58,190 bases of DNA, from positions 1 to 58,190 of IMG/VR virus record IMGVR_UViG_3300027861_000036. One strand, written 5' to 3'. This document shows positions 33,901 to 51,634 of the stretch, piece by piece (position 1 is the first letter of the stretch; each line of letters starts with the position of its first letter). The DNA is from a virus. The position numbers were made by a program, and so were the translations under genes. The notes under the pieces are model-generated. The model made no database searches and was not told the origin of the DNA. It saw only the letters and a list, made by a program, of their open reading frames with translations.

Positions 33901-35681
33901 TTGGTGCAACATTAGCTGCGCAAAATAATGGTGAACCTTCTTGTCAATTATTTAATTCATTTGCTATAAACCCACTTGGGTTTGAAAATGAGAGATATAA
34001 CTTTCAATTTGGCAGCGGTGGTAATGAGTTTATGTCAAGTACAGAACCAAGTACAGGTTTAAACCCTGTTACACTTGCTCAAGCTATTGTAAATTGGATG
34101 TACAATGAATGGATTAGTACTAATAAACCACCTGATACTAAAAGAAGAGCTGATTATGGGCAAAGATATGCTGTTACTGATGTAATAAATTTAAGAGGGG
34201 CTAACTCACAAAAAGGAGATAGGAGTTTAGATCCTAACTATAAAGCTTATGTAATTCATGTTACATCAGTAGTAAATGATTGGTTTGCTCCACCAGGTTG
34301 TTCTCCGCAATGCCATGATAAGAGTCAAGTATGTTTAGCACCTTGGAGTTCTGGTGTACAGGGTTTAATTTTAATGCTTGGTTCTGTACCAACAGTTAAC
34401 GCTCTAGCAGCTGGTAATTGCGATCCTTTTACAGCGCAATTTCCAGAACCCTGGCTTGCACCATTAAATAATGGTAATCCAAATACTATTTGGGGAGTAC
34501 CTAATTGGCATCCGTCAGGCCCTGTGCATGACGCTGATATGGATGCAGCTGTTCAAGGAATGGTAAATTATATATCTATTGAATGCCCGTTTATACCAAT
34601 AGACCCAAGTCTTTGTGCATGTTATGAATTTATATTGACATCTACAGGTGATTCTGATACAACATTTGCCTTAGTAACCTGTGAAACAGGAGTCTTAGCA
34701 ACCCCTGTAGTTGTTCTAAACGGTGAATCTGTAACTATGAGTTGTGCTAGAAATGCTTATGCAACAGCAGGTACAGGTACAGTTACATATGTTAGTACAA
34801 CACCATGTGGAAGTTATAATTGTGAAGGAACTACAGGAACAGAAGCTGTTATTAACACATATGAAGCTATATGTAGAAAAATAGATTGTGGTTGTTTACC
34901 GGGGCCTACACCACAAACTGTAGTTGAACAAGTAGGTACTTGTGATATACCTAATTTAATATATGATATAGGATATCCATCTGTTTCATTACCTACAATA
35001 ACTTGTAATTATGATATCATATACGCAACACCACCAAGTAATGCAACAGGTGGTATATGGAGGCATAATTACAGATGTGATTTGTATGCTAACTATTATG
35101 GTGTTGATTACCCTTGGGAAATAGAGTTTGTAGAAACTACGGGGCAAATGGTAAATACTGTAAGAAGTTTAGAATACCAGTTAGAAGCTTTTGTATATAA
35201 AGGTAATTTAATAAATGGTTGTGGAGATGACAGATGGCATGATTTAGATTTCAACTTTGATGAATCTATAATTTATAATACTGAGCAGGTATCCGGGTTA
35301 CTAAGATTAGAACTAAACCCTAAAGAGGATCCTTTAGCTATGATACAATATCCCATTATAAGTAATACTGATATTAGAATCCTTTATTCTAAAGAAGAAC
35401 AAAAATACAGGTTCAATCAGTTTTGGGATGTTACTAAAGATAGAGGAGAGTTTTTTAATCAAACACTTGGTGTTTTTGTAGAAGAGCCAATATTCATAAC
35501 TCAGCTAAACGGATACATTAAAGATTTAAACTCAGTAAATCTTAATTATATAAAAGACAGTGACCAACGTAAAAAGTTTAGACACTACTATAACAAATTC
35601 CTTTTAAGAAGAAGGATATCTGGTAATAGGAAGATGCTATTAAAAATAAATAATGCTAAATTAAACTTATCCTTTAGATGA
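27966..35681 (+). CDS. Giant tail muzzle/stabilisation-type protein with PA14-like and VWA-like insertions (2,571 aa)
   Basis: Resembles crAss-like muzzle proteins (P22 gp10-like), which form the tail nozzle; the N-terminus (LFTKGMSKDVNASFQGKETW, then YNNSVDGDVG) is family-typical. A hydrophobic stretch near residues 702-722 (GAIIIASIIGVGYAM) may be a buried or membrane-interacting helix. Three CPPGY-type Cys motifs occur at C1556, C1595 and C1843. Between them is a PA14/GLEYA-like domain (about 1634-1810; FLIAADNAVRVFVDGNLFADL). A VWA-like domain follows (about 1926-2175) with DDSTT at 1938-1942, near the MIDAS DxSxS. The C-terminal 400 residues return to muzzle-like sequence, so the adhesive domains appear inserted. 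At 2,571 residues it is unusually long. Confidence 0.7.
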   Translation: MAKKSKKTTNPNNTSSTEVNLFTKGMSKDVNASFQGKETWYHAINAYNNSVDGDVGVIGNEPANLECAKIPYTIIGAIHKQGDEWYIFSTDDVNSEIGLFNDSECAYTTIVNAPCLSFNRKYLITGASKENFDCTWQVYWDDNLNPSRTLNVDDIPWIQNDISTPGSPCKEYQDTIILDCEKIRLAPLVKTPCVKLTKAQDGGQIVNGSYQAFIAYALNGQKVTDYIGVSNIQSLFDHSEFAGSLNITIENLDQRFEEFELVILSNTKNQHVAKRIGLYSTAQTADPSQTSLLPKVISLDFIDPALISTPFPILFKKSPAYEKSEAMYVVNDWLLRQGPTEQFDFNYQPIANLIKTEWVVAQYPASYYFKGGNKTSFMRDEQYAFFIRWIYNTGERSASYHIPGRPPRTTTSFPTPGTNQFGEVINETDDAICPGNCFPTEMNFQAYNTATLITVNASIPVGDGGTIISTGDMGYWESTERYPATKPEIWDSTYINPNTGVNLANTTDTRYDLCGQPIRHHKMPTEELHSSLHLSTEDGQNIRILGVQFKNIIRPKYNDGSYIENIVGYEVLRGSREGAKSILAKGIFRNMREYTIPDAEDLIGDPVQGIYPNYPYNDLDDDQYFQDDRIKTIGCHGYTASIDVYKPLEGYRQDVFTFHSPELMFKRPFLSAHETRIYGTLHGQAEGQFVPSEKHPKNKLLRNGAIIIASIIGVGYAMQKIRGKVTKKSLPLQMNNQGLTWPHSGLGTRSGLIYETILGSGEMSDKGGGNILWGVAGDGYSPHMPGEQLPTSIAGLDNIAAMGAAEGAIQAVITAFLTGEEGGKFAAIGDGGETTTSLYESMNTSRLAAGVLPGTFGAGMQIDIEESEQMGGPVGFRNLTGFTAFLTHFMVGTDEIIELFYNLISLNNFAYKHNSHGQYTTFQRTLFSDDNYRRKNIDANYIGSSFQTFGETSSSSGLFKINNLFRPDTVAINTDGILTNPRVIDNSRYTLGELGDPYLEDPTLKVKRPISCLYGALKFDFENQYGQLEGVKQVQMRGCVEYVDSSNPDGFSYFTEPLFSGDVYINRYTEKTIMPIFTDFMYGQPDETIYDYIKRINIPYPRYWMNTEKYQIGKLIDGFLNGTLFATFSGGNTPDLIPEDLFYLDRHASSCGAFLVQQTLGTGTPTANNVDPNPIFAMRFAYMYTHVNGIQDFFVESELNIAQRDWEDIAAKRHYDPYLYTSIRDLFHADIIKDDNFYKYDSPLSASRFITNLQSYGNVQLRDYDPQVAETCFSFYPKRLIYSLQARKETRKDFWRVFLPNNFKDFKDKVNVIKPINKSGAIIFFPYRSPQMFQGLDTLRTDLGTKLTIGDGGLFSQPFQNLVNADLANEYGSCESARSVVNTPLGIFYLSQAQGKVFQYGRSLKNIANNGMKWWFNKYLPSILIREFPELAETELGDNPVVGVGCQSVYDTNNDIVYFMKKDYSVIDEYKTNIQFDIGNCQFYFYPDGCDTSTCRFPITLGDITYFNDASWTVSYDPKANAWISFHDWHPELVMPSINHFLTTKTEPADPTQHYCPPGYIYNPQTGDCESLVTETVPGFAILEDNIQTITISDCPPGYTLNQLTNICVGLTTNATVSPTTYLVAPIVSNPVFGIVGTRFYNGAFGTGPFISTTASTDLFDSNNNPVAFNLRPKGSISNDPWWRRLRDGGVWTTLVCPSLGGCPSTCGSLNCTNLPCCEWIGFITCVNITESKEYCFLIAADNAVRVFVDGNLFADLNFSANVTFQRMHVIPIFLTAGTHSITMEGFNNDQSGGFVGEIYNLTLQEAQDTNIIGSEFNLINYRLWSSRQEQQFNTGQFSGNTCPPGYSLVFSADCGELICVQIANPEVTCGCEPGYTIVYPELQLDNVTVYNVLDTGPCSIDVEISPAVPGTDPGPDPLPLPIAPSCPVDIVFVMQADDSTTDDFYGGLRQREVMIDFVQRFLVNPTIQAALNAGTLQFGATLAAQNNGEPSCQLFNSFAINPLGFENERYNFQFGSGGNEFMSSTEPSTGLNPVTLAQAIVNWMYNEWISTNKPPDTKRRADYGQRYAVTDVINLRGANSQKGDRSLDPNYKAYVIHVTSVVNDWFAPPGCSPQCHDKSQVCLAPWSSGVQGLILMLGSVPTVNALAAGNCDPFTAQFPEPWLAPLNNGNPNTIWGVPNWHPSGPVHDADMDAAVQGMVNYISIECPFIPIDPSLCACYEFILTSTGDSDTTFALVTCETGVLATPVVVLNGESVTMSCARNAYATAGTGTVTYVSTTPCGSYNCEGTTGTEAVINTYEAICRKIDCGCLPGPTPQTVVEQVGTCDIPNLIYDIGYPSVSLPTITCNYDIIYATPPSNATGGIWRHNYRCDLYANYYGVDYPWEIEFVETTGQMVNTVRSLEYQLEAFVYKGNLINGCGDDRWHDLDFNFDESIIYNTEQVSGLLRLELNPKEDPLAMIQYPIISNTDIRILYSKEEQKYRFNQFWDVTKDRGEFFNQTLGVFVEEPIFITQLNGYIKDLNSVNLNYIKDSDQRKKFRHYYNKFLLRRRISGNRKMLLKINNAKLNLSFR

Positions 35682-38600
35682 TGAAAAGAACTAACAGAAA
35701 AAAAGAGAGCAGAGGTTTACCAGGTGGACCACATGAACAGTTTACATATGTAACAGGTGTATTCTCACAGGATATGTATCATGTTCCTAAAGCTCAAAGT
35801 GGAATAGAGCAGCCTATTCTGTATGTAGATTCAGAAGATGATGAGAGGTATAAAAGTTATATAGACAGTTTGATACCTTTTAATGCTATGGTAAAACAAT
35901 ATAATATTGAAGGTAATGCAAGAGGTAAATCAGATTGGGAAAAAAAGACAGAACTTTATTCATCTATTAAAAACTTAGATGATTGGATGAATGCTGCTTT
36001 TGGTGGAAATCTAATGGCTAGAGATTATGATATGGGTGCTGATGATCCTACAGGTTATATTGAAGATGAATACAAAAAATTAAAAAGAAAATATCCAAAT
36101 GAACCTTTAAGATATGACTCTGAAATAGAAAGATGGACAACAAAAGATTTAAATTACAATAAAAACTATGATGAAGTTGGTGAAAATATAACACCAGAAT
36201 CTGAATTTTATAATGTCCCTTTAAATTTAAAAGATGCAATAAAAAAAGGTGAAGTAGATAAAGGTGATATAGAATTATTAAAATACTATGAGTCTTTAGG
36301 TATTCCAAACGAAAGAATAGGATATTATAATTCTCCTGACGTTTATTCTGATAAAGTAAAAGCAATAGGTAATTGGATGGGCAAAGCATGGAATCCTGTT
36401 TATCCAGAACCAAAAGTTCAGGTCAATGTTAAAGGTAAACAACCTTTAGAAAAACTTAAATTTAAAGAAATACCACAACCTGATTATAGAATACATGACT
36501 ATATGAAGATGGAAGGAATGGATCCTTCTCCAGAAAATAGAGACATGTGGGCTAAGATGCTTGGTATAAAAGATTATATAAGAACAGCAGAACAAAATGA
36601 AGAACTGATAAAGAGATTAAAAGAATACAAAAAGAATCCTATAAGAGCTCAATACGGAGGTAATATTTCTACAGAAGGTTATAAAAGAAATAGTAAAGAT
36701 GTAAATAACCCTTTTAATGTAATTATGGGTGACCCAAGTGGTACACCTATAACTATGGGAGGGGTAGACTTTGCTGTAAAGGGTGTAGACAACTTAGGTA
36801 ATGAAAAAATAATGTATCCAGGAGCAGAGTATCATTTCCCTGGTAGCATGGTTTATGAAACACCTTTTAGGAGAGCTCAAGAAGGTAATGGTGAAAAAGA
36901 AGTACAACAAATATATGATTTCAATGGTAGTAAATGGAAAATAAAAGATGGTGTTTATGAACAAGTATCTGATGACGCACCAGTAACAAATGCTCATACT
37001 ATTGATAGAAGCTCTGCTTATGCTAAAAATAAATCTGAAAGGCTTTTTAGAAATATAACACCTCAAGGCTATGGTGATCTTAAAACAAATTTAGAAAGAT
37101 ATAAAAGATATAAAGGTGATCTAGGCAGAGATAAAGAAGATGTTTTATGGCAGAGTGCAAAAGATTCTCCTACAGGAAAACCTATTTACTATAATCTTCC
37201 TAAGAGAGATGATATGTTTAGACTATATCTAGGTTTAAATCAAGAACATAATAGTTTTACTCCTCAATTAGATTATAAACCATCAAAAGCAAAAAATCCA
37301 GATGCTTTATATTGGAAGCCTAACTATTGGGATGATGAAATGAAACAGTATCTTCTTGATTATTCTCTTAATCCGATAGGGTTAAGAGATAATAAACTTG
37401 TATATGATAATAAAATTTTTAATGAAAGAAGTGATGTGTTTCTTCCTAAGTTAGAAAGTTTAGAAGCAGAAGGTATGGATTGGTCAGACCCTCAAACAGC
37501 TGAATGGGTTGCAGATAATCCATTGGGAGATTTTACTGTAACTAAAGGTGAAGATGATCATGGAAAATACATATCTATTTATGATAAAATAGATTTTAAC
37601 CCTTTTCAAACAGGAGATGGCTCATCTACTAATGCAGCAGGCAAAGCATTACAACTTTATATGAAATCTCAAGGTTATGACGTTGACGAGAATACTGAAG
37701 CCGCATCTTTATTAGGGGCTGGTAAACCCTATGAAATTTATGATAGAATCTATTATGATGATAAGACTGGTAAAATTATTAAATCACCGTTAATTAATAA
37801 ACAAAAAGGTGGCAGTAATATTCAAACACCTTTGAGGGGTGCCCAACAAGGAATAGAAGTACCAACCAAAAATCAAATAGCTAATGATCCTGAATTAATG
37901 AATTGGGATAACTATAATACACCGCTTACTAAGAAGGAACAAAAAGAATTTAAAAAATGGATGAAAGAAGCAAATATTCATCCCTGGGACAGAGGAGCTT
38001 ATGATATACAAGGGTATTGGAAAGAACAAGTTAAAGGTAAAGGTTTTGATAGTGTAGATGATGATGGGCATAGACCAGATACATATAAAAAACCAAATCA
38101 TCCTACATTTTCTATGCAATCTAAATATGCAGATCATCCAGGTGTTGAAGCAGGTTTTTGGGATGGCCCTGATTATTATGCACCATCCACACATAGAAAC
38201 TTATATGGATTAGATTATTATGACTGGATGAATTCAAGAGAGCCTGATAGACCTGAAAAGCTTGCGGGTTATATGGAGAAGCCTATTATTGTTACACCAA
38301 AACAACAAGGTGGTAGTAATATTCAAACACCTTTAAGGAGAGCTCAACTAGGAATAGAAGGTGCTAGTACTTATAACATTGGTTACAGACCTAAGTATCC
38401 TTTAAATGCTTCAGAAAGTACAAGGGTAGAACCAATTGCAATACCTACAACTGCAAATCTAAATTCATATGCGGATTTTATGAGTAGTAAAAGATTTCAT
38501 AAAGATTGGATGAGCTCTCCCATGCATATGCAAATGCTTAAAAAAAGTGCACCAGATAATTATTTAGATATTTTAAAAACAAGACTTCAAAATATTAATA

Positions 38601-41600
38601 ATGCAACTATACGTGATAGATTTATAGAAGGTGATCAATATATACCAGGTTCACTTTTTTCTGGCAGCCCTGCTGGCGGTTATGCTCAAGGGTTAAATTA
38701 TGTTAATCAATCCCCTTTATATAAATCCATAGAGCGAAGAAATATGCCCCACATGAGACAATATAATGAATTTTTTTTGGATTTACCCACGCATGAATTA
38801 TCTCATATACAAGATTATAAAAATTCTTATTTAGGTAAATTTAAGACATTATTTGGGGGTGATCAATATGATTATCAATTTACAAATCTTCCAAAATCAG
38901 ATGTTTCTTTTATAAGAAATTTAAAAATAAAAGATAATAAATTAACTAAAGAATCAGAAGAATATTATTCTGATCCAACCGAAGTAAGGGCTAGGTTAAA
39001 TGAAATTAGACACTCTGCAATAAGAAATAAACAATGGGATCCGTTTAATGAAAAAATGACACTTAAAAAGTTAAAATGGTTAAATCTTGATATTATGAAG
39101 CCTGGTGGTTTAGATGATTTACAACAAATTTATAGCGATGAACAGATAATAGATTTATTAAATACTGTTTCACAAACAGATGATGATCAAATTTACAATA
39201 ATGAAAATAGAACTAGCTATGCACAATCTGGTGGTGAATTTCAAAAGTTAGTTAACAAATACACAACACAAGGTTGGTCTTCTCTCAATCCTCAAGAACA
39301 GCAGTTCTACAGAGAGACTTATCAGAGAGGTGGTTCAATACCTCAATATCAAAGGGGAGTGGAGACTGAAGATGAACGAATAACAAGAGAAGGAAATGCT
39401 GACTGGATGAGGGGTTGGATGGAAGCACAACCTATAGAAAGGAGAGATTCAGCATGGGCTCAAGAAGGATGGAGAGAATGGGAAAGCCACATGAATCTCA
39501 GGGAAATAGAAGAGAGGGAGGCGGAAATAGAGAGAGAAAAGAATAATTCTTGGGGTAGTAAATATCCTTATAATAAAATCAAAGAAGGATATGATTGGTT
39601 AAAAGATAAGTTCCCAATGCCTTTTCAAGAAGGTGGTGATTTACCAAGCTATCAAATACAGGGAGAAACAGATGTTGAACGTGCTGACCGTATAAATTTA
39701 CTTCAATACAACTTTGATGAACGAGAGTTTGATTATATAAGGAATGAACTAGAAAGTGGTAGATGGAATGAACTTTCACCTAAAGAACAAGAGTTTTATA
39801 GAAAGAACCAGCCTGTTATGCGTCCTGTACAGAATAAATTTGGCATGGAAGGGATGAAAATAGTGCAGGGTAGTGGTGATGATTTAGAATGGATACCTAA
39901 TATATATAAAGGTGTAATACCAACTATTAATGTTACAGCTTCACGCCCAGATGATGTAAATCCTGTTATAAATGCTATGCGTACAGGAAGAGATAATTTA
40001 CAAAATGAAATAGGGAAAGCAGTAGAAGAAGGAACTCCTTGGGGTGCAATGAAAAGAATGTATAAACACGGTCCTAAACATTATTATGATGCAACAAATG
40101 TAGCTTTAAGAGATGCAGTTACTTTAAATAAAGTACCACATTTTGGTGAATGGGCTAAACTGTTAGATGTTGCAGAAGTAGCTCCGGTAGGAGGGCTTGT
40201 TACTCAAGGGTTAAAAGCCCCTATTAAATCAGGCACTAAAGCAATAGCCAAACAAGTAAAACAAATTCCTTCTACTATAAAAGGACTACCCAAAGAACTA
40301 AAAAATTTAGATACTAAAGCTGGGGATTATTATTTTGGAAAATATGCTCGTATGAGGGATATAGAAACAAATGCAAATAAATATTTAAAGGAAGGTTTAG
40401 GTATAAAAAAAGGAAGTATAAAAGATAATGACTTAGCTATAAAATATAATCATAAAAACCGTGATTTTCAGATTACAGTTAAAGGGGTAGGAACAGAAAA
40501 GGATAGAATCACCGGTTATATAAAACTTGGGGATAAAGAATGGAAAAAACCACCTTCTTTTTTTGGAAGCATATTTGGTAAAAAACCAACTTTTAGTTCA
40601 CAAATATCAAAAGAACTGGATTTCCCATATTCTAAAGCATCAGAGTTAGAGGGTACAGGTTTAGGAGCTGAGGTAGTAGCCGCTATGAATAAAGCAATTA
40701 AAGATAAAGCAGGTACTTTATATAGTTCTAAGTCACATTTTGATGACGGAATAACCAGATATTTACAAGAGTATTTAAAGGAAAGGGTATTGCCTGGTGA
40801 AAACTTTACTAAATCTACTCAGTTTTTTTTAGATGATTTAAAAAAAGCAGTGGGAAATGATTATTCTAAAAATGCAATAAGAAAGTTTCAGGAGTTGCCA
40901 GAAAATCAATGGATTATTAAATCATATATAGACAAGTTAAGATGGCAATATAAAATGGCAGGGGGTGAGTTAGGAATAGAAACGTTAACTTCTGATAAAG
41001 AACAAGAGTATCAATCTGGTGGTTCTACAAGTTCTTTATGGGAAACAAAAACTGGTTTACCTTGGAGTGAAGCTAAAGCAAGAGGTTTATCTGACGGTAC
41101 ATATAGTTCTAATGTAGCGTTAAGAAAAAAACTTTTAAATGATGAAATAAATTTCCCTAGTACACCTGTGGTAAATGATATACAGCCTATAATAACTCCA
41201 CAAGCAACTCCACAAGTAACTCCGGAAGTACAAGAAGATGTAAACTTTGATCATCTTACATTTGATGAAGCATTTGGAAAAGCCAGAGAGATGTATGGGC
41301 CTAATAAAATATTTAAATATAAAGGACATTTAAAAAATACTAATAGATCTGGTGAACCATTTGAACCTTCAGAAGAAGAGCTTACTAAGTGGGGGATGGG
41401 TACTAAAAAAACAAAGGAGAAGATAAAGAAAGTTAATGAAGATATAGTTAGTCCATATACAGTTGATGATAGATTAGAAATAGAAGATGTTTTTGAACCT
41501 AGTAGAGAATGGGAAAAAGAAGCAATGAAAAGATTGCAAAAAGAAGTAGAAAGTGGTGAACCCGGTATGCATGAGAAAAAAACATGGGAGTATCAAAAGA

Positions 41601-43444
41601 AAAAAGTAAAAGGTGAGAATACTAAATCACAAGCAGATCTTATAATTGATTATCAAAGTAAAAATAGTAAAGGGACTTATGCAATAGTAGATAAAACTAA
41701 AGGGTTATTGCATATTTATAAACCTGGAAATAAAACGCCTTATACAGCAGCTATTGATTTAGGTGAAAATAAAGGGGATGCGCAAACAGTGACTAAACCT
41801 AAAGATTTAAATAATGATGGTACAATTACTGATGCAGATAAACGTAATAATAAATTTATACCTAATTGGAGTGCTGGTAATTTAACTACAGGAGCTGGAA
41901 AATATTATATATCTAATATTTTACCTAATGGGGTAGATGGGTTGCCATTATTTAATATGATGAATGAAAGGCAGTATGAAAATTATAAAAAAACAGGAGA
42001 TGTTCAAAATGTTTCTACAAGCTTTCATACAGGGTATATAAAAGATAATCCCACAAGAGTATCACATGGATGTATAAGATGTAATAAAGCTAGTTTAGAT
42101 CAATTAATGAAAAGTATGCCTGTTTTATCTGAAGTATTTATATTACCTGAAGATAAAGATAATAAGTTTATGATTCAAGATGGTAAGTTAATATTTAAGG
42201 CCGGTAATAAATCAAAGTTTTATGAACATGGTAATATTATGTATAAAAAAGAAAAAGATAAAAAAGGAAATGAGCATTGGTATGCAAGTGATAAAAATTG
42301 GAAAACTAAGGGAAATCTAACAAAACAAAAAGTTGAAAATAAATTTAATATTGATGAAACTGGTAGTTTATCAGGTGGATTACCTGAAATATCTGTAACT
42401 CCTGGTCAAAAATATCTTGATAAAGGTATTGGGGGAAAGTTTAAAAAAATTAAAAATGTAGGTGGAATCTATGATGAATTAAATAAAAATGCTATTAATT
42501 TAGGATATAATATTTATGAAGATGAAAAAGGTATTATACGAAAAGGACAAGGTGTTAATAGGTCTGTTAATACATTGAATTATAAACCTATAGATATTAA
42601 TTTAGATAAAGCAAGATTTAATGAAAATATATATGATCCAGATCCAACAGGATATTCTGTAGTAACATTAAGAAATAAAACTCAACAAAAAGTAGTAAAT
42701 AGTTTTGTAGAATCTCTTAAAGATAATAAGAGAAAAGTAATGAAAGAAATGCAAATAAGTGGGGATGTATATAATGATCTAGTACCTATAGCTTTTGGTA
42801 TATTTGGTAATGAAACTACTTTTGGTCAAGAAAATACTGCTGGTGGAAATATGGCAAGAGCTTTAAATAAAGGTGGTAGAAAAGCAATAAATTGGCTGTT
42901 TGATGCAGATTTAAATCCTTCAAGTAAACCTGATTATAAATCAGCATATGAAACATATGGATTAACGGATGATGAAAATAGTGTTGGATTAACACAATTA
43001 AGATGGTCAGAAGTAAAAGGAGAACCTGCTCTTCTTAAGAAATTAAATAAGTTAGGAATTAAAAGTAATAAAGATTTAATGGATCCTGAAAAAGCAGCGT
43101 TAGCAACTATAGCAAGATTAGCTTTTTTAATAAATAATAGAGTGGGTGTAGATAAAAATGATTTGATGAACACATTACCTGGTCATTGGGGTGGTAGTTC
43201 AAAAGATGGTAAACAAACATATATAAATAACGTTAAGAAAAATAGCAGATATATAAGTGTGTTACAAAAACAGAAGGGTGGAGAGATAACAGCCTTATAT
43301 AAAGAATATGCGGATGGTAAAAATATTTCTTCTTCTGCAAGGAAAGCATATGATAAACTAAATAGAATGTATTATACAGAAGCTAAACAGCAAGACATGT
43401 CTCCTACTAATTATATAATGACTCATGTTATAGGAAGTAAATAA
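35678..43444 (+). CDS. Giant cargo/ejection protein with metalloprotease, L,D-transpeptidase and lysozyme-like domains (2,588 aa)
   Basis: Probably packed in the virion and delivered with DNA. Readable parts: THELSHIQD with H1039, E1040, H1043 (HExxH zinc site) and a later DPTEVRAR (E1102), a zincin-type pair; a GNAT-like segment with ELEGTGLGAEVV (about 1570-1765, weak); a YkuD L,D-transpeptidase domain (about 2000-2155) with FHTGY (H2117) and SHGCIRC (H2130, C2132); and a lysozyme/transglycosylase-like domain (about 2365-2530) with GNETTFG (E2379) and SVGLTQLRW. AQxGG/AQxG[IV]E motifs recur from residue 39 to 2532. A dockerin/EF-hand-like loop (DLNNDGTITDAD) lies inside the YkuD domain. Starts in the stop of the muzzle gene. 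Confidence 0.8.
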   Translation: MMKRTNRKKESRGLPGGPHEQFTYVTGVFSQDMYHVPKAQSGIEQPILYVDSEDDERYKSYIDSLIPFNAMVKQYNIEGNARGKSDWEKKTELYSSIKNLDDWMNAAFGGNLMARDYDMGADDPTGYIEDEYKKLKRKYPNEPLRYDSEIERWTTKDLNYNKNYDEVGENITPESEFYNVPLNLKDAIKKGEVDKGDIELLKYYESLGIPNERIGYYNSPDVYSDKVKAIGNWMGKAWNPVYPEPKVQVNVKGKQPLEKLKFKEIPQPDYRIHDYMKMEGMDPSPENRDMWAKMLGIKDYIRTAEQNEELIKRLKEYKKNPIRAQYGGNISTEGYKRNSKDVNNPFNVIMGDPSGTPITMGGVDFAVKGVDNLGNEKIMYPGAEYHFPGSMVYETPFRRAQEGNGEKEVQQIYDFNGSKWKIKDGVYEQVSDDAPVTNAHTIDRSSAYAKNKSERLFRNITPQGYGDLKTNLERYKRYKGDLGRDKEDVLWQSAKDSPTGKPIYYNLPKRDDMFRLYLGLNQEHNSFTPQLDYKPSKAKNPDALYWKPNYWDDEMKQYLLDYSLNPIGLRDNKLVYDNKIFNERSDVFLPKLESLEAEGMDWSDPQTAEWVADNPLGDFTVTKGEDDHGKYISIYDKIDFNPFQTGDGSSTNAAGKALQLYMKSQGYDVDENTEAASLLGAGKPYEIYDRIYYDDKTGKIIKSPLINKQKGGSNIQTPLRGAQQGIEVPTKNQIANDPELMNWDNYNTPLTKKEQKEFKKWMKEANIHPWDRGAYDIQGYWKEQVKGKGFDSVDDDGHRPDTYKKPNHPTFSMQSKYADHPGVEAGFWDGPDYYAPSTHRNLYGLDYYDWMNSREPDRPEKLAGYMEKPIIVTPKQQGGSNIQTPLRRAQLGIEGASTYNIGYRPKYPLNASESTRVEPIAIPTTANLNSYADFMSSKRFHKDWMSSPMHMQMLKKSAPDNYLDILKTRLQNINNATIRDRFIEGDQYIPGSLFSGSPAGGYAQGLNYVNQSPLYKSIERRNMPHMRQYNEFFLDLPTHELSHIQDYKNSYLGKFKTLFGGDQYDYQFTNLPKSDVSFIRNLKIKDNKLTKESEEYYSDPTEVRARLNEIRHSAIRNKQWDPFNEKMTLKKLKWLNLDIMKPGGLDDLQQIYSDEQIIDLLNTVSQTDDDQIYNNENRTSYAQSGGEFQKLVNKYTTQGWSSLNPQEQQFYRETYQRGGSIPQYQRGVETEDERITREGNADWMRGWMEAQPIERRDSAWAQEGWREWESHMNLREIEEREAEIEREKNNSWGSKYPYNKIKEGYDWLKDKFPMPFQEGGDLPSYQIQGETDVERADRINLLQYNFDEREFDYIRNELESGRWNELSPKEQEFYRKNQPVMRPVQNKFGMEGMKIVQGSGDDLEWIPNIYKGVIPTINVTASRPDDVNPVINAMRTGRDNLQNEIGKAVEEGTPWGAMKRMYKHGPKHYYDATNVALRDAVTLNKVPHFGEWAKLLDVAEVAPVGGLVTQGLKAPIKSGTKAIAKQVKQIPSTIKGLPKELKNLDTKAGDYYFGKYARMRDIETNANKYLKEGLGIKKGSIKDNDLAIKYNHKNRDFQITVKGVGTEKDRITGYIKLGDKEWKKPPSFFGSIFGKKPTFSSQISKELDFPYSKASELEGTGLGAEVVAAMNKAIKDKAGTLYSSKSHFDDGITRYLQEYLKERVLPGENFTKSTQFFLDDLKKAVGNDYSKNAIRKFQELPENQWIIKSYIDKLRWQYKMAGGELGIETLTSDKEQEYQSGGSTSSLWETKTGLPWSEAKARGLSDGTYSSNVALRKKLLNDEINFPSTPVVNDIQPIITPQATPQVTPEVQEDVNFDHLTFDEAFGKAREMYGPNKIFKYKGHLKNTNRSGEPFEPSEEELTKWGMGTKKTKEKIKKVNEDIVSPYTVDDRLEIEDVFEPSREWEKEAMKRLQKEVESGEPGMHEKKTWEYQKKKVKGENTKSQADLIIDYQSKNSKGTYAIVDKTKGLLHIYKPGNKTPYTAAIDLGENKGDAQTVTKPKDLNNDGTITDADKRNNKFIPNWSAGNLTTGAGKYYISNILPNGVDGLPLFNMMNERQYENYKKTGDVQNVSTSFHTGYIKDNPTRVSHGCIRCNKASLDQLMKSMPVLSEVFILPEDKDNKFMIQDGKLIFKAGNKSKFYEHGNIMYKKEKDKKGNEHWYASDKNWKTKGNLTKQKVENKFNIDETGSLSGGLPEISVTPGQKYLDKGIGGKFKKIKNVGGIYDELNKNAINLGYNIYEDEKGIIRKGQGVNRSVNTLNYKPIDINLDKARFNENIYDPDPTGYSVVTLRNKTQQKVVNSFVESLKDNKRKVMKEMQISGDVYNDLVPIAFGIFGNETTFGQENTAGGNMARALNKGGRKAINWLFDADLNPSSKPDYKSAYETYGLTDDENSVGLTQLRWSEVKGEPALLKKLNKLGIKSNKDLMDPEKAALATIARLAFLINNRVGVDKNDLMNTLPGHWGGSSKDGKQTYINNVKKNSRYISVLQKQKGGEITALYKEYADGKNISSSARKAYDKLNRMYYTEAKQQDMSPTNYIMTHVIGSK
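37808..37859 (+). repeat. Direct repeat copy 1 (GGSNIQTPLR ... GIE coding)
   Basis: About 52 bases, nearly identical to 38309-38360, 501 bases apart and in frame. Encodes GGSNIQTPLR followed by GAQQGIE. Several silent differences suggest selection on the protein rather than a very recent duplication. Confidence 0.75.
38309..38360 (+). repeat. Direct repeat copy 2 (GGSNIQTPLR ... GIE coding)
   Basis: Partner of 37808-37859; encodes GGSNIQTPLR followed by RAQLGIE. Preceded by PIIVTP, one of three VT[AP] motifs in this protein. Confidence 0.75.
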
Positions 43445-43463
43445 AAATTATTACTTTCCCTTT

Positions 43464-43471
43464 TAATTTTG
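43464..43471 (+). promoter_or_regulatory. Bacteroidota-type -7 box (TAATTTTG)
   Basis: TAATTTTG followed by TATATTAAG in the 58-base gap between two giant genes, 32 bases before the ATG at 43503. Same layout as the 2313 and 12592 boxes. No -33 TTTG. Confidence 0.45.
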
Positions 43472-43502
43472 TATATTAAGTATATAACCATACATAAAAA
43501 AT

Positions 43503-46500
43503 ATGAAAAAGATAAATAAAAAAAGTTTAAAGCAACAAGGTGGGCAGTCTGTTAATCCTCAACAACAACAGATGATGCAACAACAGCAACAGCAACAGCA
43601 ACAGCAGGGGCAACAACAGCAACAAGATCCTACAGCAGAACTTGCTGCATCTTTTTCTGAGATGGTTGATAGTGGATATGAACCAAAACAGGTGATAATG
43701 CAATTCATTGAATATGAGGTGCCTGAAGAACTTATTTATCAAACTCTTTTAAGAGTTGGATATTCTGAAGATGATGTACAAGCATTATTTACGCAGGTTA
43801 GTGAGGAAGTACAACAAACATCTAATGAACAGAGGTCAATGATGCAACCTCAACAGCAGATGTCACAAGCACAAAGAGGGGTGGAAAGTGAACCACATCC
43901 TTTAGATGATAGAGGGCAAAGTTATGATCAGGGAAATAATGAAGGTTATTGGCCTACACCTAAAAAAGAACCTCGCTGGTCTATTCCAATTAACAAAGCA
44001 CCCTTTAATAGTGATAAAGATAGAAAAACTTGGATACAGGCACAAAAGAACTTGCGAAGGATGGAAGCCATAGAAAAAGAAATATTGGCAGAGGAAAACA
44101 TACGCAGAGCACAATATGGTAAAGAACATCAATATAATATAAAACAAGATGAAGGTATTGTTAATAACTATGGAGCAAGAGTTAGGAATTGGATGAGTCA
44201 AATTGACCCTAGTGCTGGTTATAATAGAGGTGATACATTAAGTAAAGGGTTAAAACTTGCTCAAACATTAGGGGATACATTCAAACCTAAGTATAGCTTT
44301 AGCCGGGGTATGAACCCTTTTAGTAAGAAGGATAAAGATGGCGATGGCTTTGCAGATGGCTGGTTTATGGATTCAAAGAAAAAGAACTTATTAAAAAAGA
44401 ATTTAAGACAAAGAGATAAAAAAATAAGAAAGTTACAAGGTAGAAGCATAAAGATCCATGAAAATGATCCTAATAAATATAGGTTTAATAGCATGGGGGA
44501 TTTTATTACAACACAACAATATGATGATGATGTAAAGAAATATAGTACAGCACAGTTTGTATCACCAACAAATAGTTATAAAGGTTATGCTTATGATTCA
44601 GACCCAACACCTTATATGACACCACAACAAAAAAAGGATTATTGGCAACATAAACAAGAGTTTGGTACAGTGGGTGATTTCTGGAAAGATCCTGTTACAG
44701 GTAAAAGTAAAAAACCAAAAAAACAAAAAAAGTCTAAATGGCATTATATGGACTTTATGAAAGGTTATAAATATGGTGGTGATTTAGACAGGTATCAAGT
44801 TCTAGGTGAAACACCATTACCACTTGACTTAAAAAATGATTTAGCAGGAACTTTTTTGCCACCACTTGATGATAATTTTGAAGCATGGAATTTGGATGAG
44901 TGGCAAAAAAGAAAAAATTCTTATAAGAATAAAGCCTTATCTATTGCTTTACCCATAAAACCTGAAGCAGGAATGAGAGGGTTTTTTGAAGGATTTGATA
45001 TTAAAGGTTCAGGTAATATTGGAGATAGATTAAACTTAAGAGGGGGATTTGGAAGTAATTTTAATGCACAAGATCCAAAAATTAAATATAATGCAGGAAT
45101 TACATATCAAGCTAATCCCAGCATATCTTTAAGTGCAGATATGGGGGGTAATCAAAAAGGTATTTCTAATTATAAGTTTGGTCTTAAATGGAAACATCCA
45201 AAAAAATCAACAAAAAACCATGTTTACAAATATCAAGCTGGAACTGAAACACCCCTATCTCCTTTAGAACCTATTACATTTAAAGATTGGTACCGAAAAA
45301 ATTTATATAGAAATTCAGGTATACCACCATCTGAGCTAAATGCATTGTATGAAAAAGAAACAGGATATGATGCTAATTCTCCAGCTGTAGATGTAGATGG
45401 TACAAAACCTTGGACATCACCTGAGTTTATGCCACCAAAAATTACAGATCCTAATAAGTCTAAAAGAACATGGAATCAAATAGGAAATGTAGTGGGTAAA
45501 GTAGGGGAGATAGGTTATCAAGCTGCTGATTTTGTAAATGAAGCAGCTAAAGCATGGCAAGATTTAGCAAAGCCAGTTCACACTGCAGATGATCTTTATG
45601 ATATTACACAAAATCCTGCAGGTGGACAAGGATATTGGGATGTAAACTCAGGATATTTACAGCAGCCTGAAAAAACACTTGAAGGTTATGGATGGGCACA
45701 AAGAGGTGGTAGTTTACCAAGATTTCAAGCTCTAGGTAGTGTTAATCAAAATACACTTAACCCTGATATATACGGTCAAAGAATTCTTGGTAATACACCA
45801 ATTGATTATAGAGATCCTAAATTAGCAGCAATGTTAAGTGCTATGCAAGCACAAAAGAAAGGTGTTAGTAGAGGTGTAACAGGTATATCAAATACACCTA
45901 AGAAATTACCAAGGTCTTTTGTTCCTGCTTCTGAGTCTACAAGTACTCAAGGGCCTATAATACTTACAGACCAAGAATTAAAAAATAAAAATTGGAGAGA
46001 AAATGTTTTACCAACTTTAAGTGCTGAAAGACAACAGCAATTTAATGATTATGAAGCTCAAAAAAAGAAAGATAATTCTACTTTTGCAAGTAGATTAATG
46101 GAAGCACCTGGAGTATTTCTTGATAATACTTTTGGCACATCCGCTGATCCAAATGTAGTAGCACCAACTGTTTTACCAACAGATCCAAGATTCTATGACC
46201 AGGTATTTCAAGGCATGAATATGGCCACTACAATTCCGGCTTATATAAATTCATATGCTGATTATATAAGTGGGAAAAGAGAAGACCCGCAGGATTGGAG
46301 AGGGATATTTCCAAGTGGCATACAAGAAAAGCTTGGTAAAAAAGATGGTGAACAGAACAACATTATAAACTCTTTACGTAATGACCCAGATTTTTGTAAA
46401 AAATATCCTTTAAGATGCGCTGCTGAAGAAATGGGACTTGGATTTTGGGGGCTTCCTGGTAGGCTTGGTAAAAAAGTTACTGGAAAACTTGCTAAGGGTT

Positions 46501-48788
46501 CTAAGGGTGCTGCTAAAGATATCAGTAAGGAATTTACTGAAGAATTTGTAAATGCTGATGAAATAGCAGAGATGAAAGCAATGCTTAAAAGTATGAACGA
46601 TGATCCAGCTTTTAAAGAATTGTCTGAAGCAACTGATCTGGAAGGCATGTCAAAAGCGGTTAAAAATATGAGCCAAAGAGATGTTGATGCCCTTGAAAAA
46701 TCAATGGATGATTGGGTAAAAAAAACAGATGCTGATGAAATAATACCTCAAGAACTGGAGAACCAACAATATTGGATAGAAAAAGCAGGGAAATCCTTCC
46801 CAAATGCAAGGAGAAGTGAAGATTATGAAAATTTGGGTATGTTTGACCATTTTGAAGATTGGCTAAGAAAAAAAGGACAGGTTCATCAAGCAAAAAAATC
46901 AGGTAAAAAAAGAATAAAACAAGAAAGGAAACTTTTAGAAGATGAGGGTTATCCTAAAGGAATGACAGATGATCAAGTATGGCATGCAATAGAGAGAAAA
47001 AGGCTGGATTATTTGCAATTGGGTAGGATAAGAGATGATGTTCGTGGAAACATAGGAAAAGGGGGGAGACAGAAATGGGAAATAGATCCAGATCACAAAC
47101 AATGGTGGGAGAAAAGTGTAGTAGAACAAGAACAAGATGTTTGGGATGAAGCACACAAGAGATGGCGGTCACCCTATGATCCTCAAACGGGAAAAATGAA
47201 AGTTGATTGGCAGGTTAATAGTTTAGATAGAGATTTGTTGAAGGGTTCTACTGAAGATTTTGAGGAATTAATGGATTATATGAAAAACTTTAAAAAAACC
47301 GGTGGTATGATACGTAAAACACAAAATAGAAATTTAGATAAATATCAAGGTATTACAAGAAGTGAAGTGGGTAAAAAAAAGAAAGATCCACGTTTGTATA
47401 ACTGGTCAAATCTGGAAGATAAACAAGCACATTACGAACATTGGCCAAATGTATTTGCACAGGAAGAGGAGAGAAGGCAAAGCAGATTATTAAATGATCC
47501 AGAGTTTAGATTTACTGAAGGTCAGGATTTAGGTATAGACTATAGACTTGATAACCCTAATGAAAGATATGGTGATAGAGCAAATGCAAATTTTATGGCA
47601 TTCTATAACCAACAAGGTAACCGTATGTTTAGAGAAAAAGCTATACCTAATGCAGAGATGTTAAGGGAGTTTGTGCAAAAAGCTGGCAGTGATGCTGGTA
47701 CACCTGAAAGTATGGCAAGACAACGTGCATGGTTAAATCAAAATTATCCAAATTTAGATGCTAGAAATACTAGATTCTTAAGACAACAAAGGGGTGGTGG
47801 TCTACCAAGTTATCAGATAGAAGGAGAAATACCAAATCAAAAAACTATGGATTATCTAGCTGGTAAATATAATCAAACTGCTACAGATGGTATATATAGA
47901 GATTTTGATAAAATTGAGAAACCTAATATAAAGGAGTTATTTCGCAGGTATAATGAAATGTATGTAGAAAAAGAAGGAATGCCATTTACTACTATAGGAA
48001 CGGCACCGATTACAGCTAAAGATGCTGCATTGACGGGTAACTATGCACAGTATATGAGAGAAAATCCAAACATACCTGTTCAAACAATACATACTCAAAA
48101 TAGTACTATACCGCCAGCTTTGCAAAGACAAAGGGGTGGTGGTGATAAATATAGAACAAGAAATATACCACCTATATCTCTTATATATGAGCATATGTAT
48201 AAAAATGATCCTAAACCTAGCAGTAATTGGCTACAACATATAAAAGATAGTTACCCTAAAGGAGGGTATAGAGGTTCGCAAGATTTCCCACCTTATCTTA
48301 CAGAATTTTATGCAGATGCGGAAGCCTTTAAACCAAAAAGAGGAGGTTTTGTAGATGAGTGGGGAGAACCTTTACCAGATAATTGGGAAAGAAGATGGCC
48401 GGGTAGAAGGCGTGAAGATGCATTTTGGAATGTTCATTCTAAAAATGATTCTATGGGTGATGCTCCTTTTGACCCTTTAAAACCAAGGAAAGGACAAGAA
48501 GATAAATGGGAACAACTTAAAGAAAAAGTAAGATTTAATCATAGAAATGATGAGACATGGATGGACTATAGTGATCCAAGTATTACTCGTCCAAAAGGTT
48601 ACAAAAAAGGTGGTAACATAGATTATGGAAACTACATGCCTGTAGATATGTATGGTCATCAAAATGCTTTTAGTACATTTAGAAGACCTGTATATCAATA
48701 TGGTGGACAACCAACAAACATAGTAGAAGTTGATGATAGAATGATTCAAAAATTAATTGCAGCTGGTGCTGACATAGAATACTTATAA
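43503..48788 (+). CDS. Giant cargo/ejection protein with repeated QxGG motifs (1,761 aa)
   Basis: A 1,761-residue protein with a lysine/glutamine-rich start (KKINKKSLKQQGGQS) and a poly-Q tract to about residue 45. A calcium-loop-like DKDGDGFADGW is near residue 280. Residues about 490-572 alternate like outer-membrane beta strands (GNIGDRLNLRGGFGSNF; ITYQANPSISLSADMGG). QxGG/AQxG motifs occur at Q12, Q124, Q204, G425, Q578, Q733, Q1429, Q1543, G1703 and Q1732; three are followed by a LPxYQxxGE-like tail shared with the preceding protein. The middle and C-terminal thirds are charged helices. No enzyme motif is seen. Family membership rests on motif sharing and context with crAss-like cargo proteins. 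Confidence 0.65.
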   Translation: MKKINKKSLKQQGGQSVNPQQQQMMQQQQQQQQQQGQQQQQDPTAELAASFSEMVDSGYEPKQVIMQFIEYEVPEELIYQTLLRVGYSEDDVQALFTQVSEEVQQTSNEQRSMMQPQQQMSQAQRGVESEPHPLDDRGQSYDQGNNEGYWPTPKKEPRWSIPINKAPFNSDKDRKTWIQAQKNLRRMEAIEKEILAEENIRRAQYGKEHQYNIKQDEGIVNNYGARVRNWMSQIDPSAGYNRGDTLSKGLKLAQTLGDTFKPKYSFSRGMNPFSKKDKDGDGFADGWFMDSKKKNLLKKNLRQRDKKIRKLQGRSIKIHENDPNKYRFNSMGDFITTQQYDDDVKKYSTAQFVSPTNSYKGYAYDSDPTPYMTPQQKKDYWQHKQEFGTVGDFWKDPVTGKSKKPKKQKKSKWHYMDFMKGYKYGGDLDRYQVLGETPLPLDLKNDLAGTFLPPLDDNFEAWNLDEWQKRKNSYKNKALSIALPIKPEAGMRGFFEGFDIKGSGNIGDRLNLRGGFGSNFNAQDPKIKYNAGITYQANPSISLSADMGGNQKGISNYKFGLKWKHPKKSTKNHVYKYQAGTETPLSPLEPITFKDWYRKNLYRNSGIPPSELNALYEKETGYDANSPAVDVDGTKPWTSPEFMPPKITDPNKSKRTWNQIGNVVGKVGEIGYQAADFVNEAAKAWQDLAKPVHTADDLYDITQNPAGGQGYWDVNSGYLQQPEKTLEGYGWAQRGGSLPRFQALGSVNQNTLNPDIYGQRILGNTPIDYRDPKLAAMLSAMQAQKKGVSRGVTGISNTPKKLPRSFVPASESTSTQGPIILTDQELKNKNWRENVLPTLSAERQQQFNDYEAQKKKDNSTFASRLMEAPGVFLDNTFGTSADPNVVAPTVLPTDPRFYDQVFQGMNMATTIPAYINSYADYISGKREDPQDWRGIFPSGIQEKLGKKDGEQNNIINSLRNDPDFCKKYPLRCAAEEMGLGFWGLPGRLGKKVTGKLAKGSKGAAKDISKEFTEEFVNADEIAEMKAMLKSMNDDPAFKELSEATDLEGMSKAVKNMSQRDVDALEKSMDDWVKKTDADEIIPQELENQQYWIEKAGKSFPNARRSEDYENLGMFDHFEDWLRKKGQVHQAKKSGKKRIKQERKLLEDEGYPKGMTDDQVWHAIERKRLDYLQLGRIRDDVRGNIGKGGRQKWEIDPDHKQWWEKSVVEQEQDVWDEAHKRWRSPYDPQTGKMKVDWQVNSLDRDLLKGSTEDFEELMDYMKNFKKTGGMIRKTQNRNLDKYQGITRSEVGKKKKDPRLYNWSNLEDKQAHYEHWPNVFAQEEERRQSRLLNDPEFRFTEGQDLGIDYRLDNPNERYGDRANANFMAFYNQQGNRMFREKAIPNAEMLREFVQKAGSDAGTPESMARQRAWLNQNYPNLDARNTRFLRQQRGGGLPSYQIEGEIPNQKTMDYLAGKYNQTATDGIYRDFDKIEKPNIKELFRRYNEMYVEKEGMPFTTIGTAPITAKDAALTGNYAQYMRENPNIPVQTIHTQNSTIPPALQRQRGGGDKYRTRNIPPISLIYEHMYKNDPKPSSNWLQHIKDSYPKGGYRGSQDFPPYLTEFYADAEAFKPKRGGFVDEWGEPLPDNWERRWPGRRREDAFWNVHSKNDSMGDAPFDPLKPRKGQEDKWEQLKEKVRFNHRNDETWMDYSDPSITRPKGYKKGGNIDYGNYMPVDMYGHQNAFSTFRRPVYQYGGQPTNIVEVDDRMIQKLIAAGADIEYL
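43559..43627 (+). repeat. CAA/CAG repeat encoding poly-Q
   Basis: A near-continuous run of CAA and CAG codons encoding about 20 glutamines with occasional M and G. Similar but shorter CAA/CAG-rich tracts occur in the portal (11011-11080) and the next gene (49440-49640). Mixed codons argue against simple slippage alone. Confidence 0.8.
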
Positions 48789-48790
48789 TT

Positions 48791-51634
48791 ATGAAAAAGA
48801 TAAAAGTAAATTCATTACCTGAAGGTTTTAAAGTCATAAACGGCAGAATTGTTGAAGCTAAAAAACACGGTGGTAATACTACTGGTGACCAATCTCAATT
48901 TGGTTTAGTAACAACTGGTACTAATTCTTCAGAAAATATAGATGAAACATCTGTTAGGTATAGTCTAATGCGTGTACCTAAAGATGAAGCAAACATAGAA
49001 GCTGAAGGAGGAGAAACTGTTCTTACAGATCTTAATGGTGATGGCAAGTTTGGTCTTTATGATATTAGAGGTCCAAGGCACAATAAAGGTGGTGTCCCTT
49101 TAAACTTACCCCCACAATCTTTTGTCTTTTCAGATTTTAATAAACTTCTCTTTAATAAGAAGGAAATGGCAGAGTTTGGTCTTGAGACTAAAAAAAGATT
49201 AACCCCTGCTAAAATATCTAAGAAGTACGGGCTTAATGAATATCATGGTAAAATCAATGATGATTATGCAGATGATATTCAAGTGACAAGTGCTGAATTA
49301 ATGTTAGCTAAAAACGGAGGACAATTATCTAAATTAGCTTTTATGCAAGAAGCTAAGAAGAATTTTTCTGATGGTGTCCCTGTATCATCACATCCTTATT
49401 TAATTTCTATAGGTGAAGACCCTATAGAGTTTACAGCAAAGATTGAAGAGATTTCAAGACAGCAGGCTCAACAACAAATTATAGAAGGTCTTCCACCAGA
49501 ACAACAAATGCAGATAGCTCAGTTACAGCAGTATATGCAACAAGTAGATCAGCAGCAGCAAGGACAGCAACAAGGACCTCAAGACCAAGGTATGCAGATG
49601 CCTCCTGAGATGCAACAGATGCAAGGTATGCAACAAGGAATGCCTCCTCAAGGTCAGGGTATGATGCCTCCACCTCCTGATATGAATCCTCAACAGATGG
49701 CACAAATGGGTTATGAGATGCAAGATATGGGAGAGTATAATCCATATGATATGCCTATGGCTCAACAAGGAGGAGGTGGGTTCTGGGATATATTAAAAGA
49801 GGCAGGTACAGGTGTTTATGACGAAATGCAAAAACAAGAAGAAGAAAGAAGAAAGAATGCAAAAATAAAAGACCAAGAAGAGAGGATAAAGAGATTAATT
49901 CAAAGATTGGACAATGAAGGTATTTTACCAGATGCGGTAAGAAATAATCCTGAATTATTATTAAATAGAGATATAAGAGAGGCGTTACGAGCTGCATCTG
50001 AAAGTTTAAATGACCTTGATCAGTATGATCCACCACTAACAGTGGAAGAAGTTGCATCTAATGTTAATGATCTAGTAAATCAACAAGCACAAGAATTACC
50101 TAATTATACAACACAAAGTACAACGCAAACTACAACACCAGGCCCAGATCCTGATGATCCAAAAAAGAAAAAGAAAAAGAAAAGGAATGGTAAAAAAACA
50201 GAAAGAGCATATGATCCAGATATAGATGATGAAGGTTTTCATAGAGCTGAAGATGTAAAGGTAGGTGAGGAATACTATCAGCCAGTTCAACGTCAAGGTC
50301 CTGAAGGATATGGTGGTGCCAGTAAAAATGTAACAGGTTATGAAGAAGGATGGGAGAAAAAATATGATAAGTATGAAGAATTAATGGAAGCTATTGAAAA
50401 AGTAGATGGACAAGGGGAAATAAAAGAAGTACGTGACTTTCAATTATGGCATAATAATGAGTATATTCCTAATACAGTTAAGGAGTATGGAGAGCAAATG
50501 AAAGCTGCAGGTAAATCTTGGACAACAGCAGATGAAACTTATTGGGTAAATAAACTTCTTAAAGAGCATGGTTTTGATTCTACCAAAGATGGTAGACATT
50601 TAGATGGTAAATGGGGTACATTTACATCTTCAAGAAGACCTTTTCAATTTGACCCTATTACAAACGAACCTGTTAAACAACCTGAAACACCAGTTGAACC
50701 AGTTGAACCAAAAGTTAAAAAACCATTAGAAGTACCGGATTATGCATCTACTTATAGACCTCCTGTATGGGCTCCTTGGATGCAAGACTTAATATTAGAG
50801 GATGCTATTGCAGATACAAGAATTAATAAATATGGACCTTGGCAACCACCTGTTCAGAAACCTGAATTAGATTATGTGTTAGAAGATCCTACAAGAGGTA
50901 TAGCAGCTCAAAATGAACAATTTAATATAATGGCTCAAGGAATGGGTGCTATTATGGGATCTCAACAATATGCTGCAAACATGGCAGAACAACAAGGAAA
51001 AAATGCTGCAAATTTAGCTAACTGGATTGGTTCTGTAAATAACAGGAATGTTAGCACTATAAATAAAACCTTTGGTCAACAAGCTAAATATGATTGGATG
51101 GCTAACCAAGAACAAGACAGAAGGAGCGTTGCAGTTCATGATGGATGGAATAAAACAAATGAGCTTTATGACCAACAGATAAATGCCAGAAATAAAGCTG
51201 CTGCAGAACAAAGGGTTAATACAATAACAAATGCTGCAAACACCTTTAATTTAAATACTATAAATCCTTATTATGCCATAGACCCTAGAACAGGAGGTAT
51301 AATAAATCAGATTAATAGTAAAGCCTGGGATTATGCTGAACAACCAACAACTCAAAGTCTTGCAGTAAGAACGGGTCAATTTGTTAGGGATTATGAAGCA
51401 GAGAATCCTGGAAAAACACCTTCAGATAAAATGATAGAAACATGGATGAAGAATCAGTATCCTCAACAACAAACAACTCAAGAAACAAACATGCAAAGGT
51501 GGTATAATAATCAACCTTCAGGAGGTTTTGATAGTAGAAGAGGATATTCACAAGCAGGTGGTCAATATATGCAAGAAGGGGGAGAAGTAAAACCTATAAT
51601 TGTTCCATTTTTTATAGGTGCTACAGGAATATAA
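48791..51634 (+). CDS. crAss-like cargo/virion protein with Ca-loop motif and Q/M/P-rich centre (947 aa)
   Basis: A 947-residue protein two bases after the preceding stop. The first 230 residues include ETVLTDLNGDGKFGLYDI (D80, N82, D84: EF-hand-like loop), then GPRHNKGGVPLNLPPQSF and VFSDFNKLLFNKKE, a block I recall from large virion proteins of crAss-like phages. Residues about 220-330 are low-complexity Q, M and P. AQQGGGG and the C-terminal AQAGGQYMQEGGEVKP carry the GG motif shared with the two upstream proteins. A lysine-rich patch (KKKKKKKRNGKK) lies near residue 460. The C-terminal half is helical and aromatic-rich. Probable cargo protein; exact role unknown. Confidence 0.7.
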   Translation: MKKIKVNSLPEGFKVINGRIVEAKKHGGNTTGDQSQFGLVTTGTNSSENIDETSVRYSLMRVPKDEANIEAEGGETVLTDLNGDGKFGLYDIRGPRHNKGGVPLNLPPQSFVFSDFNKLLFNKKEMAEFGLETKKRLTPAKISKKYGLNEYHGKINDDYADDIQVTSAELMLAKNGGQLSKLAFMQEAKKNFSDGVPVSSHPYLISIGEDPIEFTAKIEEISRQQAQQQIIEGLPPEQQMQIAQLQQYMQQVDQQQQGQQQGPQDQGMQMPPEMQQMQGMQQGMPPQGQGMMPPPPDMNPQQMAQMGYEMQDMGEYNPYDMPMAQQGGGGFWDILKEAGTGVYDEMQKQEEERRKNAKIKDQEERIKRLIQRLDNEGILPDAVRNNPELLLNRDIREALRAASESLNDLDQYDPPLTVEEVASNVNDLVNQQAQELPNYTTQSTTQTTTPGPDPDDPKKKKKKKRNGKKTERAYDPDIDDEGFHRAEDVKVGEEYYQPVQRQGPEGYGGASKNVTGYEEGWEKKYDKYEELMEAIEKVDGQGEIKEVRDFQLWHNNEYIPNTVKEYGEQMKAAGKSWTTADETYWVNKLLKEHGFDSTKDGRHLDGKWGTFTSSRRPFQFDPITNEPVKQPETPVEPVEPKVKKPLEVPDYASTYRPPVWAPWMQDLILEDAIADTRINKYGPWQPPVQKPELDYVLEDPTRGIAAQNEQFNIMAQGMGAIMGSQQYAANMAEQQGKNAANLANWIGSVNNRNVSTINKTFGQQAKYDWMANQEQDRRSVAVHDGWNKTNELYDQQINARNKAAAEQRVNTITNAANTFNLNTINPYYAIDPRTGGIINQINSKAWDYAEQPTTQSLAVRTGQFVRDYEAENPGKTPSDKMIETWMKNQYPQQQTTQETNMQRWYNNQPSGGFDSRRGYSQAGGQYMQEGGEVKPIIVPFFIGATGI

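Follow-up and report, generated by a model that had tools for sequence, protein, structure and literature searches.

Three consecutive giant proteins of an environmental crAss-like phage, here called A, B and C, share a short motif, with the consensus GG-x-LP-[KRM]-[AYF]-Q-x-G-x-E, whose copies mark the junctions of swappable modules and stand at nearly every seam. The motif is real, is wider than the first-pass annotation of this DNA had reported, and extends beyond one genome. Since a fixed pattern stands at nearly every seam, something must read it, probably a cutting enzyme or a docking partner. Crassviruses, among which are the most abundant viruses of the human gut, store and eject protein by the megadalton, a process on which the motif touches; as a candidate processing or docking signal placed at junctions, it also allows unannotated giant proteins to be parsed into modules.

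The window, that is, the whole 58 kb stretch analysed (58,190 nucleotides), is a fragment of a crAss-like phage genome as judged by the type of its TerL, portal and major capsid protein (MCP), which matched the PHROG families phrog_6681, phrog_6547 and phrog_11589; its TerL is 24–27% identical to those of crAss-like phages. The gene order is TerL, portal, capsid, tail genes, a muzzle-like gene, A (from 35678), B (from 43503), C (from 48791), D (from 51693) and the start of E, a giant protein that runs off the end of the window. The protein preceding A, B and C (2571 aa) matches muzzle-type structural proteins, and the muzzle-like P0004 matches phage structural proteins, one of them annotated as muzzle in csAssE-Sib; the tail-ring Pfam families CrAss_Ring_1 and Ring_2 are present in relative G006. 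At the left end, positions 1–2300 (~2.3 kb) have a GC content of 0.41 versus 0.33 and lack a long forward reading frame. Because peptide patterns revealed no close relatives of B and C among viral contigs, relatives were reached via TerL; C was located in each of the ten obtained, and their genomes were read.

All the features described below lie on the + strand. Protein A (35678..43444, 2588 aa, ~13 motif copies) and protein B (43503..48788, 1761 aa, ~10 copies) appear to be modular cargo, and protein C (48791..51634, 947 aa) occupies the gene slot of crAss001 gp45. All three combine conserved ends with variable middles, in C as conserved N and C parts around a variable middle, and some blocks are common to A and B, others to B and C. 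Cell-wall-acting and effector-like modules, including those of transglycosylase, L,D-transpeptidase, LysM, ADP-ribosyltransferase and zinc-peptidase type, are recognised in A from its domain matches: Pfam analysis of 35 A proteins identified SLT in 15, LysM in 11, YkuD in 7, peptidoglycan-binding in 4, ART-PolyVal in 3, and lysozyme and SET in one each, and 24 of 73 A proteins contain HExxH strings. The window's A has a YkuD domain (aa 2001–2155) and a peptidase-like HELSH site (aa 1039), and B proteins gave no Pfam match. Since the three genes adjoin the muzzle gene and crAss001 gp45 is known cargo, A, B and C are most likely packed in the virion and ejected into the host; from gene position and gp45 only, we infer that A and B would be delivered into the host cell. 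Elsewhere in A, the 55 residues that lead up to one motif copy (aa 269–325) match parts of phrog_5115 and phrog_2307, and may therefore be a mobile small domain. By eye only, the motif-bounded modules at ~aa 545–790 of protein C in G008 and at ~aa 490–575 of the window's B show an alternating pattern that resembles beta-hairpin or outer-membrane-barrel repeats.

The first-pass annotation had counted the motif about 25 times in the three proteins; including variants, we find about 27 copies in the window, and the residue positions it gave were recovered to within 1–2 residues, save for B 1703, which (by eye in the translation only) is a KKGGN variant. In A these are KAQSGIE (A 38–44, 35789..35809); RAQYGGN (A 323–329, 36644..36664); RAQEGNGE (A 399–406, 36872..36895), immediately following the conserved STEGYKR domain; the double motifs QKGGSNIQTPLRGAQQGIE (A 709–727, 37802..37858) and QQGGSNIQTPLRRAQLGIE (A 876–894, 38303..38359); YAQSGGE (A 1181–1187, 39218..39238), closing a peptidase-like module; a third double motif, YQRGGSIPQYQRGVE (A 1215–1229, 39320..39364); the long motif FQEGGDLPSYQIQGET (A 1316–1331, 39623..39670); YQSGG (A 1778–1782, 41009..41023), closing a predicted disordered stretch; and QKGGE (A 2532–2536, 43271..43285), which precedes the conserved C-terminal tail in a confidence dip between ordered parts. 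In B, QQGG (B 11–14, 43533..43544) follows a conserved N-terminal tag, and further copies are AQRGVE (B 123–128, 43869..43886), AQYGKE (B 203–208, 44109..44126), YQAGTE (B 577–582, 45231..45248), QRGGG (B 1543–1547, 48129..48143) and YQYGG (B 1731–1735, 48693..48707), the last one preceding a conserved C-terminal tail, together with the long motifs KYGGDLDRYQVLGET (B 423–437, 44769..44813), AQRGGSLPRFQALGS (B 732–746, 45696..45740) and QQRGGGLPSYQIEGEI (B 1428–1443, 47784..47831). The extended form GGxLPxYQxxGE, also claimed earlier, was located at A 1319, B 1431, B 735 and B 425. C carries KKHGG (C 24–28, 48860..48874) at the end of its conserved N-terminal arm, AQQGGGG (C 324–330, 49760..49780) with a helix directly after it, and QEGGE (C 928–932, 51572..51586) before its conserved last 15 residues, all three in predicted disorder. 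The claim that the motif reaches the third protein stands, with only 2–3 true copies; a weak match at residue 174 is probably spurious, as it falls in a helix predicted with confidence.

The literal pattern, [AYF]QxGG or AQxG[IV]E, occurs 12 times in the window's A, B and C versus 0.29 expected (8 + 3 + 1 versus 0.10 + 0.10 + 0.09, from 2000 shuffles). A broad pattern matches A 13, B 10 and C 4 times, and a combined pattern 14, 8 and 3 times versus ~0.26 expected in each. An unbiased search for four-residue patterns in the A, B and C proteins placed AQ.G.E at the top (29 versus 0.6 in shuffles), the other top patterns, Q-runs aside, being L..AQ.G, P.AQ.G, LPK.Q and G.LP..Q. A position matrix, GG-x-L-P-[KRM]-[AYF]-Q-x-G-[GKI]-E, gave 105 matches in 43,472 residues of A, B and C proteins; the remaining proteins, 311,931 residues in total, gave 11, most of them false. 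The core columns carry 2–3 bits and the conserved block spans ~12–14 residues, of which even the best-conserved positions vary among copies. In openly licensed papers we found neither a prior description of the motif nor anything relevant on crAss processing or domain shuffling.

Scanning the relatives with this profile, as the first-pass annotation had proposed, revealed that the motif is almost confined to the three adjacent genes, both in the ten relatives and in 80 further loci with C. In these loci, which are not fully independent since at least 5 of them are contigs that built the matrix and several are near-identical, its density per 1000 residues is 1.42 in A, 1.77 in B and 1.23 in C, versus 0.02 in D, 0.00 in E and 0.03 in the upstream genes (mostly muzzle); the contrast with the neighbouring genes is unaffected by the overlap with the matrix set. 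Small lysine-rich proteins (66–221 aa) with QxGG or YGKE, encoded at 90289–90537 in G001, 36643–37308 in G005 and 45158 in G009, may be further packaged proteins.

How the copies are placed links them to module boundaries. Homologous blocks start 2.3-fold and end 3.1-fold more often than expected at the masked motif, versus 1.2–1.5-fold for random masks. Among 283 clean insertions (at least 80 residues; not all independent sites, because related proteins were counted separately), the left junction lies near a motif, that is, within 20 residues, in 135 cases versus 22 expected, the right junction in 47, and both junctions in 30 versus 2.3 expected. The window itself provides an example: a ~293-aa module of A (aa 34–328, 35777..36661) with a copy at each end is absent from the relative L175_A, whose empty site lacks the motif. 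The earlier remark that copies avoid recognised domains also held, since the Pfam domains of nine A proteins contain not one of the 48 copies there (4.7 expected), several of which lie 6–7 residues upstream of a LysM or SLT domain. Separate copies are spaced by a median of 275 residues, and outside the terminal ones lie the conserved tails. In predicted structures, the credible copies are in or edging low-confidence segments in both models obtained: the three in the AlphaFold model of C are in segments with pLDDT <50, and in the model of the C-terminal third of A, which is weak evidence given its low mean confidence (54), the copies at 1779 and 2532 border on, or lie within, a drop in confidence flanked by better-ordered parts. 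The picture first drawn is borne out in so far as the motif is real and its copies are strewn among unrelated segments, at the boundaries of domains, in virion- or cargo-type proteins of a crAss-like phage.

Two readings would deny the motif a function in the protein. That it merely reflects chance or the low complexity of Q- and G-rich proteins is so improbable as to be negligible: Q-runs do occur in B and C, but 3–14 matches were observed versus 0.1–0.3 in composition-keeping shuffles, and the motif recurs in relatives, so this candidate was rejected. It also seems very improbable that the shared linker sequence acts as a DNA-level site at which modules are swapped by homologous recombination, with no protein role. 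Modules are indeed gained and lost at the motif, and within gene A a 61-nt direct repeat of 89% identity (37799–37859 and 38300–38360), holding the double motifs QKGGSNIQTPLRGAQQGIE and QQGGSNIQTPLRRAQLGIE, flanks a 501-nt unit, likely a recent duplication of a linker cassette. However, pairs of copies use the same codon for the same residue in 58.6% of cases versus the 53.4% that codon usage predicts; two copies from one genome resemble each other no more than copies from different genomes do, with no sign of homogenisation; and the A 34–328 module came with copies at both ends into a site that has none in L175_A. The codon choice and the lack of within-genome likeness therefore indicate selection on the protein, not on the DNA.

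Among the readings that do give the protein sequence a role, we tentatively favour a protease processing site, which would free the modules of the injected cargo from each other and remove the terminal packaging tails of A, B and C, before or after ejection. Of the three roles that the first-pass annotation had put forward (processing site, anchor, ejection signal), processing best fits copies that stand at nearly every module seam and between conserved terminal tails and variable modules. We prefer it because the copies part modules from each other and conserved tails from modules, and because the sites of action would differ among the modules recognised: SLT, LysM, YkuD, ART-PolyVal and HExxH modules of A would need separate targets. 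In crAss001 gp45, two parts resolved by cryo-EM are ~420 Å apart with 179 residues to bridge the distance (PMC10172136), so that an uncut gp45 would need a largely stretched chain (~2.3 Å per residue), a hint in the same direction. At ~12–14 residues the motif is long for a protease site; this length suits a binding motif, and a docking tag is a possible, if less probable, alternative, in which each copy would be a short linear motif for some part of the virion to bind, be it the portal, the tail ring, a scaffold or another cargo protein, the string being held along the path from capsid through portal to tail and ejected in order. The motif is conserved at the protein level and confined to three cargo genes, and one consensus holds for copies of a single genome and of different genomes alike, which a conserved partner would lead one to expect. 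In crAss001, A425-F-G-G is exactly where the portal-bound part of gp45 begins (PMC10172136); this copy may thus itself be ordered on the portal wing, and because the ordered part starts at an AxGG site docking is nearly as good a reading as processing. However, the conserved terminal tails already offer packaging signals, the model of C puts its copies in disorder and not on its own domains, and docking alone does not explain a copy at nearly every module seam. That the motif is a plain spacer, a low-friction flexible linker that needs no dedicated partner and allows modules to be unfolded and threaded singly through the portal, looks unlikely: the copies are G-rich and in predicted disorder between ordered parts, but A-Q-x-G-x-E and GGxLP, with 2–3 bits in the core columns, are far more specific than a spacer needs, and the giant RNA-polymerase-associated proteins, also cargo, do without the motif.

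If the motif is a processing site, a candidate enzyme would be E, the giant RNA-polymerase-associated neighbour, through its conserved zincin domain. A canonical prohead protease was not found: Peptidase_S78 was absent from four relatives, and no prohead protease was among the matches listed for relative G006 (25 of its 34 Pfam families). The YHEAFH zincin signature occurs in protein E of all ten relatives (at residue 2127 of G001:63818, and in nine others) and in crAss001 gp47; the window's E is cut off before it. As a universal processing enzyme the zincin was not adopted, because in ProJPt-Bp1, which has the motif, the sole HExxH-like strings are two, both in cargo proteins and lacking a zincin context, and the phi17:2 giant proteins tested lack HExxH (its gp42 has two HExxH strings). 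More speculatively, and in our view rather improbably, many crassviruses would store their effectors strung together in polyproteins that share one junction code; a packaged zincin or another protease would cut these into separate cell-wall and cytoplasmic modules, and genomes would exchange the modules as motif-bounded cassettes. If so, the gp45 parts seen 420 Å apart would be separate pieces of a cut protein. Should the motif be a processing site, the topology of gp45 in the published virion structure would have to be read differently.

Related motifs are found beyond this clade. In the cargo-region proteins of Azobacteroides phage ProJPt-Bp1 (Suoliviridae), a 13-residue AYGGxVPRYAxGG occurs in PJPA_033, 035, 036, 038 and 039 only (10 extended copies, ~0 expected), and its TerL, portal, MCP and downstream giant proteins have no such repeat. 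The layout, GGx[LV]P[KR][AY][QA]xGG, is alike, but with A for Q and V for L; the four of these cargo-region proteins that were scanned gave no Pfam domains. In PJPA_033 (NC_055706), several copies are followed within 20–60 residues by a hydrophobic, membrane-helix-like stretch, as seen by eye only. Copies of the QxGG and AQxGG type also occur in gp41 and gp42 of Cellulophaga phi17:2, which was isolated on Cellulophaga baltica, and in Leptolyngbya phage Lbo-JY46; some of them follow the same conserved domain that opens A.

One of the nearest known systems is crAss001 gp45 (PDB 7QOG, 7QOL and others), which lies, like C, between muzzle and RNA-polymerase-associated proteins and whose two cryo-EM-resolved segments (PMC10172136) are bordered by a short version of the motif: its 8 AxGG-type sites (1.6 expected, p 0.003), among them those with GG at 209, 263, 332, 427 and 562, bracket the tail-barrel segment 214–245 and the portal-bound segment 425–552, and no such site occurs in the eight further crAss001 proteins tested. 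In contrast to C, gp45 has no AQxGxE or LPKAQ form, and no counterpart of A and B is seen at its slot. The C profile matched the portal-bound stretch of gp45 only weakly (E 0.012 over 67 columns, probability only 3.7), a fold search of the C model against the PDB gave no match, a solved-structure search with the C profile gave nothing relevant, and D was not significantly similar to crAss001 gp46 by BLASTP. Enrichment is slight or absent in other gut crassviruses, and csAssE-Sib has none. Residues 222–343 of gp45, between AxGG sites, are the sole part matched by p-crAssphage, crAss002 and cr8_1 at the threshold used, a sign that gut crassviruses, too, exchange modules.

In their mosaic make-up, the A proteins resemble the polyvalent proteins of phages and conjugative elements, which are described as many-domain injected proteins mixing effector, peptidase and lysozyme domains (PMC5512222): several unrelated enzyme or effector domains are joined in one A polypeptide, in mosaic combinations, and ART-PolyVal is among them in 3 of the 35 A proteins. 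The recognised modules here differ in being mostly cell-wall enzymes, and linker and motif terms retrieved no shared junction motif from that paper. One polyvalent protein, P1 DdrB, is processed before packaging, a precedent for the processing reading, and another, the N4 virion RNA polymerase, is packaged uncut, which speaks against it (PMC5512222). The A-X-E sites that the prohead protease gp245 of the giant phage SPN3US recognises are likewise short and repeated; they lie in head proteins that are packaged, and their last conserved residue is E (here G-x-E). All cleavages identified in SPN3US, the protease itself aside, make N-terminal propeptides (PMC10052503), whereas the motif described here is longer and lies between modules.
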